Source: a virus | Strand: one strand, 5' to 3' | Length of the DNA stretch: 20,525 nucleotides | Virus record (IMG/VR): IMGVR_UViG_3300038451_000186 | Location: 1-20,525 of that record | Program-made: the position numbers and the translations under genes | Shown: positions 13,026 to 17,335 of the stretch, one piece after another | Layout of the letters: every line of letters starts with the position of its first letter | Numbering within the stretch: position 1 is the first letter of the stretch | The notes under the pieces: generated by a model | Database searches by the model: none | What the model saw: the letters and a program-made list of their open reading frames with translations, nothing else | Told to the model about the DNA's origin: nothing

Positions 13026-14501
13026 CTAAAAAGATGTTATAGTTTTGGTCTCTTTGATTAGTTTTACTGCCTGCTGGCGTGCGCTTACGGGCTTCGGGAT
13101 CTCTTTTTTTGCTGGCTCCCAAATAGCGTAATGCGGCATCTTAAAGGCATCGATAGCATGAGGTTTATTTGCGCCTATATTTAAATAATCCCTACCATCT
13201 GCATCTTGTGGAGGATGTATAAGAGTAGAGATTTCCTTGATTAAATATTTACACTTGGAAGAAAAATAAAGCGCTGGCTTGCCGTTTACGATCTTAAGAA
13301 ACTCATGTATCGCATCGTTGACGGATTCACGATAATTTTTATTGTGGTCTAAAGAGGTTTTGTTAACTACTACCATAGCAGGCGCATCGTCGCCCATGCG
13401 CTGCCGGAACACGCTTTGGAATATTTGTATCGGCGTCTTATCAAATCCTACATTACTTATTTGTGATATATCCATATCAGTATCATATATTATGTGCAAC
13501 TTAAATAATTTTCTTTCTAAAAGAAAATCCGAAATTAAATTTGCTCTCTCGGATGGACTTTCGCAGCCAGGCAGATAGCACTCATCTGCTGATACAATTG
13601 TGCCCTCGTAATCTCTTTGCAAGACTTCCAAAACAGTTGTGTTCCCGTAGTCCAGACCGCCGATAGTTGTAAAGTGTGCAGACATTTCATAATTGTTTAT
13701 AACGTGTATGTTCCTTCTGAACTCACTAAAAAACATTCCCTCAAAAATATCCATGTCACCTAGTAATTCAGCTTTTCGTTTGCTTTCCGGGAGCTGGTCT
13801 AATATCCTGCCGTAATCAGTTTTTAAGAAATACTTAAACCTTACGTCTGAATCCCATTTATGATAATCATCAATCGTTAGACCTTCTTCATTTAATTTCC
13901 GTTGGCTCCAATATGCGTTATCCCACCCGAACGTTTGTAAAAAAGCGTAATTCTCAGGAACTTCATTGCCTTCATAGTTAAATTCAAAGAATAGTCTTTT
14001 GTTGTACGAGTGTGAAATGCCACCAGGATTAAAACATAATAGCATCTTTGGAGTAATTTCTAAATTGGTTGAACGGTTAATTGTGGAGAGTGATTCAATT
14101 TCTGCTTGGGTGAATAATTCGGATTGGTCTATAATTATATCGGCAAACTCACGTCCTTTTCGCTCTTCAAATTCCTTAAGGGAATCACCGGACAAAAATC
14201 TAATGTAGGATTTATTAGGTAGAGTTAACATCATTTGCTGCACATTAAACATCGATCTGAGCACCGGATATTTATTAAACAGAGGTGTTAAGTGTATATC
14301 CCAAATATCTTGATAAACTTTCATGACTATCAATCCGTTTGTGCCTGCGTACTTCCTACGTCTGATTATCATCAAAACGTCGGCAGTGTAACTCTTTGTC
14401 CCGCCTCGTGAACCGCCGAACCCTATTATCCTTGCCTCTCCGTATTCGTACAATTGATACAATTTATCTTGAACGGGTTGAAGATTAAAAATAATAGCCA
14501 A
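13026..14501 (-). CDS. terL: Terminase large subunit
   Basis: A 491-residue packaging motor. The ATPase part shows Walker A GGSRGGTKS (residues 29-37), Walker B DIIIDQSE (121-128, Asp125; the usual DE is DQSE here) and a coupling motif CFNPGG (156-161). The RuvC/RNase H-like nuclease part has GGLDYGNTTV (Asp284), YDTDMD (340-344) and HAIDAF (Asp451). The start codon is TTG at 14501, supported by GGAG seven bases upstream; there is no ATG until residue 44. It translocates genome DNA through the portal and cuts concatemers. It follows the small subunit after about 130 bases and ends in TAG. Confidence 0.9.
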   Translation of the reverse strand: MAIIFNLQPVQDKLYQLYEYGEARIIGFGGSRGGTKSYTADVLMIIRRRKYAGTNGLIVMKVYQDIWDIHLTPLFNKYPVLRSMFNVQQMMLTLPNKSYIRFLSGDSLKEFEERKGREFADIIIDQSELFTQAEIESLSTINRSTNLEITPKMLLCFNPGGISHSYNKRLFFEFNYEGNEVPENYAFLQTFGWDNAYWSQRKLNEEGLTIDDYHKWDSDVRFKYFLKTDYGRILDQLPESKRKAELLGDMDIFEGMFFSEFRRNIHVINNYEMSAHFTTIGGLDYGNTTVLEVLQRDYEGTIVSADECYLPGCESPSERANLISDFLLERKLFKLHIIYDTDMDISQISNVGFDKTPIQIFQSVFRQRMGDDAPAMVVVNKTSLDHNKNYRESVNDAIHEFLKIVNGKPALYFSSKCKYLIKEISTLIHPPQDADGRDYLNIGANKPHAIDAFKMPHYAIWEPAKKEIPKPVSARQQAVKLIKETKTITSF

Positions 14502-14634: not shown

Positions 14635-15006
14635 TTACACCTTAGTTATACCGTTTATAATCAGGTTCATATCACCAGAGTGTTCAATTTCCGTTTTGTC
14701 CGTCCAGCCTAGTTGTTTCAAACTAAAAATAGCCATTGTTTTATCAATCTCGCCATTTAACGCCAGCTTTTCAAGTTGCGCCTCTTTTTTTTCAATTAAT
14801 TCTTTTATAGAGTCCGACAATTTGTGTATCTCGTAAAGCCTTTGTTTCCTTACGTGGTTCTTATAACAAAATTCAGCGATAATGGGGATGTCGGTAGAGT
14901 TGATATACTTTTCGAGTTTAAGTTTAATCTCAAGATTTAGCTCGGGAGTATATTTTACTTTTCGACCTCTTTTATTCGGGCTGGACTTAATTTTCTTTTC
15001 GGGCAT
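14635..15006 (-). CDS. terS: Terminase small subunit
   Basis: A 123-residue protein with a basic N-terminus (MPEKKIKSSPNKRGRKVKY), a helix-turn-helix region around TDIPIIAEFCYKNHVRKQRL (residues 38-57), a helical linker, and the characteristic C-terminal sequence LKQLGWTDKTEIEHSGD (96-112) seen in many phage small terminases. It recognises packaging sites on the genome and recruits the large subunit. The ATG at 15006 follows AAAGAG. Upstream lies the 260-base gap with the solitary CRISPR repeat. Good family match by pattern and by its place before terL. Confidence 0.85.
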   Translation of the reverse strand: MPEKKIKSSPNKRGRKVKYTPELNLEIKLKLEKYINSTDIPIIAEFCYKNHVRKQRLYEIHKLSDSIKELIEKKEAQLEKLALNGEIDKTMAIFSLKQLGWTDKTEIEHSGDMNLIINGITKV

Positions 15007-15126: not shown

Positions 15127-15158
15127 GTCGCGCCTCATACAGGCGCGTGGATTGAAAC
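15127..15158 (+). CRISPR. Solitary type I-C CRISPR repeat (no array)
   Basis: A 32-base element that matches the type I-C repeat plan from end to end: GTCGCGCCT, loop CATAC, AGGCGCG, then TGGATTGAAAC. The 7-base stem CGCGCCT/AGGCGCG (15129-15135, 15141-15147) and the GTGGATTGAAAC 3' end are the diagnostic parts that Cas5-type processing enzymes recognise. There is only one copy, no second repeat and no cas gene in the window. In crRNA orientation it reads on the plus strand, opposite to the flanking genes. Phage solitary repeat units are known as RNA anti-CRISPR candidates. Recognition of the repeat class is from memory of the family consensus. Confidence 0.88.
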
Positions 15159-15167
15159 GTCATCTGG

Positions 15168-15201
15168 GTTAAAGACTAACTCAATCAAGGGGGTCTTTAA
15201 C
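15168..15201. repeat. Hairpin-forming inverted repeat beside the CRISPR repeat
   Basis: GTTAAAGAC (15168-15176) and GTCTTTAAC (15193-15201) are perfect inverted copies around a 16-base loop. Two further G-T pairs can extend the stem. It begins nine bases after the CRISPR repeat. It has no T run, so it does not look like a terminator. If a plus-strand RNA is made, repeat and hairpin would form two adjacent structures. Confidence 0.6.
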
Positions 15202-15266
15202 TTAAACTCTATTTCGTGTGACTGATTAAGTTTTATGAGGTGTGTAATTAACATCTGTAACCTTGT

Positions 15267-15644
15267 TTATGTTTTTACTATTGAAAGGGCTTTTCTCATT
15301 CTTATTTTTGCGTTTTTCCTTTCGTGCCGTTCATCATCGAGACCCAAATAATTTCTAACTTTATTTTTTATTGTTTGATATTTTTTATTCGGTACATCTG
15401 TAATCTTAAGCTTTATTTTGCCTTGCTTCATCAAATCATGAGCCAAATAATGACATCTTCTGCAAAGTAATCTTAAATCATTGTTTGTAACGTCAAATAA
15501 ATTCTTGTAATTCAGATGATGTATATCTATTTTTTTGGTAGATCCACATATCGAACACCTTTTATTGCTTCTTTCCCATTTCCGGCTTCTTTTTTGTTTC
15601 CATTCATCGCTTGCCAGATATTTTTGATATTCAACCTTATCCAT
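15267..15644 (-). CDS. HNH endonuclease next to terminase genes
   Basis: A 125-residue HNH protein. It has CSIC (Cys30, Cys33), DIHHLNY (His42-His43), NND (54-56) and CRRCH (Cys61, Cys64, His65): the four-cysteine zinc frame and HNH active-site order are both complete. The C-terminal third is basic (KNKVRNYLGLDDERHERKN). HNH proteins beside terminase genes often assist cutting of concatemeric DNA in packaging; a homing endonuclease is an alternative because gene and flanks are free-standing. The ATG at 15644 has only a weak ribosome binding site. It is the first gene after the leftward promoter of the control region. Confidence 0.85.
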   Translation of the reverse strand: MDKVEYQKYLASDEWKQKRSRKWERSNKRCSICGSTKKIDIHHLNYKNLFDVTNNDLRLLCRRCHYLAHDLMKQGKIKLKITDVPNKKYQTIKNKVRNYLGLDDERHERKNAKIRMRKALSIVKT

Positions 15645-15693: not shown

Positions 15694-15745
15694 CCCCTCT
15701 AACTATCTTGCGAAGAACATTTTGGTACTCTTATCGTTAGAGGGG
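15694..15745. repeat. Perfect 10-base inverted repeat with 32-base loop
   Basis: CCCCTCTAAC (15694-15703) and GTTAGAGGGG (15736-15745) pair perfectly. The element lies in the predicted leader of the leftward transcript, between its promoter and the HNH gene. Inside the loop TCTT-GCG-AAGA can form a smaller hairpin. It is GC-richer than its surroundings, which speaks against chance. No T run follows on either strand. Confidence 0.65.
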
Positions 15746-15810: not shown

Positions 15811-15839
15811 AATATACGAAACTTTCTTAACGTTGTCAA
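15811..15839 (-). promoter_or_regulatory. Leftward sigma-70-type promoter for the late arm
   Basis: On the minus strand a perfect TTGACA -35 box (15839-15834), a 17-base spacer and TATATT (15816-15811) as -10 box. Transcription would start near 15804 and run into the HNH gene and the packaging genes. Operator O1 covers the -35 box. Confidence 0.75.
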
Positions 15840-15840
15840 G
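15826..15840. promoter_or_regulatory. Operator O1, dyad CTTAAC-GTT-GTCAAG
   Basis: A 15-base dyad of the form CTTrAC-N3-GTyAAG that overlies the leftward -35 box. Read on the minus strand it is CTTGACAACGTTAAG, placed exactly like O2 relative to its own promoter. The shared arrangement indicates a repressor that controls both directions. Confidence 0.72.
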
Positions 15841-15892: not shown

Positions 15893-15907
15893 CTTGACAT
15901 TGTTAAG
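15893..15907. promoter_or_regulatory. Operator O2, dyad CTTGAC-ATT-GTTAAG
   Basis: Second copy of the dyad, covering the rightward -35 box. Half-sites match O1 in reverse orientation (CTTGAC / GTTAAG); only the three central bases differ. The centres of O1 and O2 lie 67 bases apart, close enough for looping between bound dimers. Confidence 0.72.
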
Positions 15908-15921
15908 AAAATGTATTTAAT
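15894..15921 (+). promoter_or_regulatory. Rightward sigma-70-type promoter for the early arm
   Basis: Perfect TTGACA -35 box (15894-15899), 16-base spacer and TTTAAT -10 box (15916-15921, five of six consensus bases). The expected start near 15928 gives a leader of about 18 bases before the ATG of the helix-turn-helix gene. O2 lies across the -35 box. Confidence 0.75.
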
Positions 15922-15945: not shown

Positions 15946-16122
15946 ATGTCAGAGAAAAAAGAAATAGTATCACAGGCGGATTTTGCGAAGAGAATAAATA
16001 AATCTCGTGCGAGAGTTAGTCAAATGATTATTGAGGGAAAACTAAACGTCTCTGAAATCATTGGACGCAAAGCGATATTATTAGATCAAAAAGCCATTAA
16101 TTTAATTAAAGAACTTAACTGA
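15946..16122 (+). CDS. Small helix-turn-helix DNA-binding protein (58 aa)
   Basis: A 58-residue protein starting MSEKKEIVSQADFAKRINKS. The helix-turn-helix is about residues 8-30 (VSQADFAKRINKSRARVSQM), followed by a wing-like strand with GRKAILLDQKAINLIKEL. Such small proteins include phage repressors, Cro-like regulators, excisionases and the Aca regulators linked to anti-CRISPR genes. It is the first gene of the rightward transcript and its promoter carries operator O2, so autoregulation is likely. The ribosome binding site is weak (AGAGAG). The DNA target is inferred from context only. Confidence 0.75.
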   Translation: MSEKKEIVSQADFAKRINKSRARVSQMIIEGKLNVSEIIGRKAILLDQKAINLIKELN

Positions 16123-16630: not shown

Positions 16631-17335
16631 TTGTGCCAGGGAGTTATAGTTAGTCTTGTAAAATTTCAAACTGAATCCGGCAAAAACAAAAGAATCGTAT
16701 TGAAAGGTATCGGTTCGCATTCGGATTTATTAAAAGACAACCAAGCCCGACTTGAAAAGTTAGGGTTCAAAGAAACTTGTATGAATCAAGATGTCATTTC
16801 AATCGAATCAGATTTTTCGGGCTGGAATAGGTTTACAGTTGAAAGCGGATACCCTACACGTTCGGAATTTGCTATTTTAACCCGAGCATATAAAGAATGC
16901 GCTGGAAATGCAAAAACATTAATTGCTCATGTTAAATTCTACAGAAATATTGACGATGGACTCTTAAATCTGTTAACCATAACGGCTTGGAAAGCATATC
17001 AGGAAGCTAAAGCACCGGCTTCGAAAGCATATCGGGAAGTAGAAGCACCGGCTTGGAAAGCATATCAGGAAGTAGAAGCAACGGCTTGGAAAGCATATCA
17101 GGAAGCTAAAGCACCGGCTTGGAAAGCATATCGGGAAGTAGAAGCACCGGCTTTGAAAGCATATCGGGAAGTAGAAGCACCGGCTTGGAAAGCATATCAG
17201 GAAGCTAAAGCAACGGCTTCGAAAGCATATCGGGAAGTAGAAGCACCGGCTTTGAAAGCATATCAGGAAGCTAAAGCAACGGCTTGGATAAAAATATTCA
17301 AGAAAAAAGAAAATAGAGTTGAGAGATTGAGATAA
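16631..17335 (+). CDS. Early protein with nine 11-residue tandem repeats
   Basis: A 234-residue protein starting at TTG 16631 with AGGAGG six bases upstream, so translated M-C-Q-G. Residues 1-118 form a separate domain (starting MCQGVIVSLVKFQTES, with GIGSHSDLL near residue 30); Cys2 would be exposed if Met is removed. Residues 119-217 are nine exact 11-residue repeats of the type AWKAYQEAKAP or ALKAYREVEAP, and residues 218-234 form a basic tail (IKIFKKKENRVERLR). The repeats are mostly helical with a Pro or Thr at each boundary. It is the gene just before the recombination operon. I do not know its function. Confidence 0.75.
   Translation: MCQGVIVSLVKFQTESGKNKRIVLKGIGSHSDLLKDNQARLEKLGFKETCMNQDVISIESDFSGWNRFTVESGYPTRSEFAILTRAYKECAGNAKTLIAHVKFYRNIDDGLLNLLTITAWKAYQEAKAPASKAYREVEAPAWKAYQEVEATAWKAYQEAKAPAWKAYREVEAPALKAYREVEAPAWKAYQEAKATASKAYREVEAPALKAYQEAKATAWIKIFKKKENRVERLR
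16985..17281 (+). repeat. Nine-copy 33-base tandem repeat inside a gene
   Basis: Nine nearly identical 33-base units in frame with the gene 16631-17335, from codon 119 to 217. Units differ mainly at codon 2 (Trp, Ser or Leu), at codons 6-9 (QEAK, REVE or QEVE) and at codon 11 (Pro or Thr). Units 1-2 and 7-8 share the same order, a sign of block duplication. Units this alike suggest recent copy-number change by slippage or recombination. Confidence 0.92.

Follow-up and report, generated by a model that had tools for sequence, protein, structure and literature searches.

In their work on solitary repeat units, Camara-Wilpert and colleagues described 2,103 in viral sequences, including those of IMG/VR3 (PMC10651486). 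RacrIC1, a type I-C case published in 2023 together with a functional test, was shown to rescue phage from type I-C interference (PMC10651486); its assay was plaque formation by phage JBD30 on P. aeruginosa PAO1 carrying a type I-C system. In the type I-C Cascade, the 5′ handle of the crRNA comprises nucleotides U1 to G12 and is clamped by Cas5 and Cas7 (PMC7684278), and interference in one I-C system requires a guide of at least 27 bases (PMC8406640). The SRUFinder rules for a solitary repeat unit ask for a full match to a known repeat, with at least 90% identity and coverage, in an intergenic position with no full or partial repeat at a distance of 100 bp or less and no associated cas genes. 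For an RNA anti-CRISPR (Racr), the functional definition adds a promoter no more than 250 bp upstream, sense transcription of the repeat, a matching CRISPR-Cas subtype in the host, and an RNA that inhibits interference by binding Cas proteins.

The window analyzed here is the whole 20,525-nucleotide stretch of the IMG/VR record IMGVR_UViG_3300038451_000186. A 32-base element, GTCGCGCCTCATACAGGCGCGTGGATTGAAAC, lies exactly at positions 15127 to 15158 on the plus strand; it did not occur in any of 100 shuffled sequences. A search of 84,980 species genomes yielded a single exact copy, identical at 32 of 32 positions (100% over 32 bases) to one repeat in a long array of Rheinheimera pacifica (L002:7346-7377). 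This genome carries 42 near-identical copies of the repeat family; the remaining copies in the array differ from the phage element by 1 or 2 loop bases, and the majority repeat differs by 1. The contig with the matching copy also bears a cas5d gene (TIGR01876, E = 7.6e-75), at a distance of about 8 kb. The predicted RNA fold consists of a 7-bp stem, a 5-base loop, and an 11-base single-stranded 3′ tail, as does that of the majority repeat of the array. Because of the exact array match and the Cas5d gene on that contig, the element is a genuine type I-C repeat and not a look-alike.

Other searches with the 32 bases found no match in Rfam or in the phage collection, and 17 plasmid records showed only partial matches or 81 to 88% identity over the full length. 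An IMG/VR search that kept the stem identical and allowed any three loop bases returned the window alone, and the exact element is carried by only one viral sequence. Rheinheimera is not claimed as the host: the repeat family is found in 1 of 395 sampled genomes of the Rheinheimera order, 40 Rheinheimera spacers showed no match to the phage or its relatives, and the G+C content of the phage is 37%.

Within the window, the repeat stands alone. Its second-best match differs at 14 positions. Aligned locally to the repeat, each of the two 100-base flanks gives an identity of 15/32 (47%), which equals that of shuffled flanks and does not reach the 70% limit. A degenerate second repeat or mini-array was ruled out on this basis, and no two repeats around a spacer, the mark of a viral mini-array, were found within the window. 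Cas5d is not encoded in the record, a 20.5-kb virus fragment to which the statement of solitary state refers, and a PADLOC scan of ten window proteins showed no cas gene. The element therefore agrees with the published SRUFinder sequence rules: it is a full match, intergenic, free of partial repeats in its flanks, and without cas genes found in the fragment. The earlier note had read these 32 bases as a full type I-C repeat plan, standing alone between an HNH gene and terS with no second copy and no cas gene. All these points are borne out within the window.

A leftward module occupies the left part of the window and includes terL, terS, the portal, and head proteins. The genes for the large (13026 to 14501; PHROG 979, E = 5.5e-9) and small (14635 to 15006; PHROG 309, E = 1.8e-9) terminase subunits are both on the minus strand, as is the HNH endonuclease gene (15267 to 15644; PHROG 8048, E = 5.6e-10). 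On the right is a rightward module that encodes a Cox-like regulator and an Arc-like protein (both weak Pfam matches), an SMC-like ATPase (a weak AAA_23 match), and a RecE-like exonuclease. No acr gene was recognized next to the repeat with libraries that hold few acr models. The repeat, on the plus strand, is antisense to both of its neighbors, terS and the HNH gene; sense RNA therefore needs a rightward promoter of its own, since read-through cannot supply it. This placement, and with it the need for a separate promoter, had been overlooked in the earlier note.

Only one rightward promoter candidate of note is found in the region defined for a Racr, TTGATA-17-TTTAAT at positions 14900 to 14928 (+), within terS and antisense to it. 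It is moderate to weak: its score is 10.0, where mononucleotide shuffles have their 95th percentile at 9.5, it fails a stricter −10 rule, and the stricter scan found no rightward promoter near the repeat. A strong promoter-like site with 11 of 12 consensus bases, TTGACA-17-TATATT at 15811 to 15839 (−), points leftward, and the transcript predicted from it would include the complement of the repeat.

Divergent promoter-like sites lie between the two modules. An inverted pair of near-identical 18-base sites at 15823 to 15840 and 15893 to 15910 (TTTCTTAACGTTGTCAAG and CTTGACATTGTTAAGAAA) overlaps their −35 boxes, beside the Cox-like gene (15946 to 16122), and resembles paired operators in the control region of a phage. 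Elsewhere in this phage group, short in-frame amino acid repeats (KAYQEAKAPA; NSGNSNSG; ADLRSA and Ala-rich) are found in seemingly unrelated open reading frames, located at 16631 to 17335 in the window and in the related stretches L003:390-1436 and L006:1090-3839.

An 11-base 5′ handle, UGGAUUGAAAC, is predicted at 15148 to 15158 (+), on the basis of how the I-C repeat folds and of the handle published for the I-C Cascade. A predicted 13-bp hairpin starts 6 bases 3′ of the repeat (15165 to 15204, +). Taken alone, it has a z score of −3.6, and none of 200 shuffles was as stable; in a comparison of the 78 solitary I-C loci listed, the z score at this locus was the strongest. Neither strand of the hairpin shows a U tract, so it is not a classical terminator. 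Among the 78 loci listed, a downstream hairpin is not supported as a general trait of solitary I-C repeats (p = 0.44). A second hairpin-forming pair, CCCCTCTAACTAT and ATCGTTAGAGGGG, is located at 15694 to 15745, upstream of the HNH gene; the 11-base word that follows it, CTTTAACTTAA, recurs at 15195 to 15205 within the post-repeat hairpin.

Six viral contigs encode a related terminase (60 to 92% identity), and the repeat is absent from all of them, even with three mismatches allowed; conservation of the element in relatives was accordingly rejected. In the closest of these, DNA similarity ends at the terS end, and the small terminase and all that lies beyond it differ. No relatives of the HNH gene were found, and those of terS are limited to four weak loci. 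The element is evidently a variable accessory in an exchangeable stretch. The earlier note would have counted absence from all relatives against its reading; the absence holds for the six terminase relatives, but it shows accessory status only.

In IMG/VR, at least 119 stretches fit a pattern in which 19 bases of the I-C repeat are fixed. With neighboring-repeat places and duplicates removed, there are at least 77 solitary I-C repeats besides that in the window, versus about 1 match expected by chance across the whole of IMG/VR (our own estimate), which argues that phages keep them. Judged by this pattern, solitary I-C repeats are a common find among viral contigs. By a simple and crude open reading frame rule, which makes the fraction a rough one, 44 of the 78 listed loci (window included) are intergenic. 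Of these 44 listed repeats, 23 are co-directional with both neighbors and 10 are antisense to both, the window among the latter. With the window left out, the counts among the matches listed are 23 versus 9 (p = 0.02), and this predominance of co-directional repeats favors a sense-RNA role.

Two further features were seen in this set. AAAC directly follows the repeat (GATTGAAAC-AAAC) in 9 of the 78 listed loci (L010, L016, L020, L030, L032, L034, L035, L071, and L126), far more often than base composition predicts. On some viral contigs, two or three I-C repeats occur at dispersed, separate places, namely, on IMGVR_UViG_3300031673_000079 (L016 and L020), IMGVR_UViG_3300018019_000025 (L013), and IMGVR_UViG_3300037843_000174 (L057); a spacing of 3678 bases is common to L013 and L057.

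The role that fits the element best, and in our judgment a rather probable one, is that of an RNA anti-CRISPR against type I-C, formed by a solitary repeat unit. A rightward transcript would start at a promoter to the left of position 15127, and the host Cas5d would bind the repeat RNA as if it were pre-crRNA. Cleavage by Cas5d at the foot of the stem would then leave the 11-base handle and the downstream sequence. With a stable hairpin starting 6 bases downstream of the handle, such a product could not offer the approximately 27 or more bases of guide needed by type I-C. Cas5d, perhaps together with a single Cas7, might be trapped in a dead-end complex and so be kept from genuine crRNAs; in addition, the hairpin may shield the 3′ end of the RNA. 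The exact match to an array repeat from a cas5d-bearing genome, the intact fold, the agreement with the SRUFinder sequence rules, the 27-base minimum guide reported for one I-C system (PMC8406640), and the many other solitary I-C repeats in viral contigs all favor this role, as does the published precedent of the same subtype, RacrIC1 (PMC10651486). Against it stand the antisense placement, which bars read-through and leaves a moderate promoter candidate within terS that the stricter scan does not detect, the lack of an adjacent acr gene recognized with those libraries, and the presence of the element in one sequence only.

A single repeat acquired by recombination with a host array and now devoid of function would also account for the absence of the element from six terminase relatives, for the exchange of the terS side of the locus among close relatives, and for the lack of a good promoter. 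Such a relic is a less likely, though serious, explanation: none of the 32 bases is altered and no remnant of a neighboring spacer-repeat unit is seen (a very recent relic would look alike), and solitary I-C repeats recur across many unrelated viral contigs. As both neighbors are leftward and the best nearby promoter-like site points leftward through the element, a transcript of the HNH-terS-terL genes, with an exact repeat complement in this late operon leader, could instead pair with the repeats of host pre-crRNA and block Cas5d. That would be an RNA anti-CRISPR acting by base pairing and not by mimicry, and we know of no natural type I precedent for it. It is very improbable, given that the sense arrangement is the commoner one in other solitary I-C repeats (23 versus 9 among the matches listed) and that pairing would be slowed by the stems that each strand forms within itself.

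Cas5d in type I-C leaves the handle with downstream sequence, so that the bases after the repeat might function as the spacer of a crRNA aimed at a rival element, a phage promoter, or a host promoter. There is no second repeat, though, the 13-bp hairpin occupies the guide region, and the downstream bases have no convincing match in the phage and plasmid collections searched, which are limited in extent. The best seed-plus-TTC site in the window matches 14 of 36 bases, and there is no good one in the relatives. The one-spacer guide that the earlier note had offered as an alternative is thus disfavored, with barely any chance of being correct; the lack of targets for it speaks in turn for the Racr role. 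CRISPR-repeat-like sequences have been mentioned as mediators of viral integration into arrays (PMC10651486), and the element might act at the DNA level, as a site for recombination with or integration into host CRISPR arrays or as a decoy for Cas1-Cas2. We give this little credence, as no integrase was recognized among the window proteins scanned.

We therefore regard the phage element as a candidate Racr with good support. Its subtype is a known one; its orientation and its hairpin are unusual. The Racr role put forward in the earlier note stands as the best fit for a solitary type I-C repeat without cas genes, but its claim of a new case does not hold as regards the kind: inhibition of type I-C by RacrIC1 had already been demonstrated (PMC10651486), and many other solitary I-C repeats are present in viral contigs.

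Viral CRISPR mini-arrays (reviewed in PMC11656645) have in common with this element a host-type repeat in viral DNA. A mini-array, however, contains at least 2 repeats, and its spacers match rival viruses; neither feature was found at this locus. With RacrIF1 from a Thiocystis violascens prophage (PMC10651486), the element shares the intergenic solitary repeat in phage DNA and the lack of cas genes. RacrIF1 is of type I-F, is bound by Cas6f and Cas7f, and was shown to be expressed as a small RNA; in type I-C, processing is by Cas5d, and the RNA of the phage element is a predicted one. The counterpart of the same subtype is RacrIC1 from a Bifidobacterium pseudocatenulatum prophage (PMC10651486), which likewise is a type I-C repeat standing alone in phage DNA with no cas genes. 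RacrIC1 is located 11 bases downstream of acrIC5 and shares its transcript, whereas the phage element is antisense to both neighbors, has no recognized acr gene beside it, and, unlike RacrIC1, is followed by a strong hairpin. The antisense placement serves as a warning that the transcribed strand should be verified before any solitary repeat is named a Racr. The hairpin, 6 bases after the handle, suggests a simple and testable way in which a solitary I-C repeat might yield a dead-end crRNA. The phage element is thus a new example of a known and tested trick and not a new kind, and it adds an uncharacterized phage lineage to the carriers of type I-C repeat mimics.
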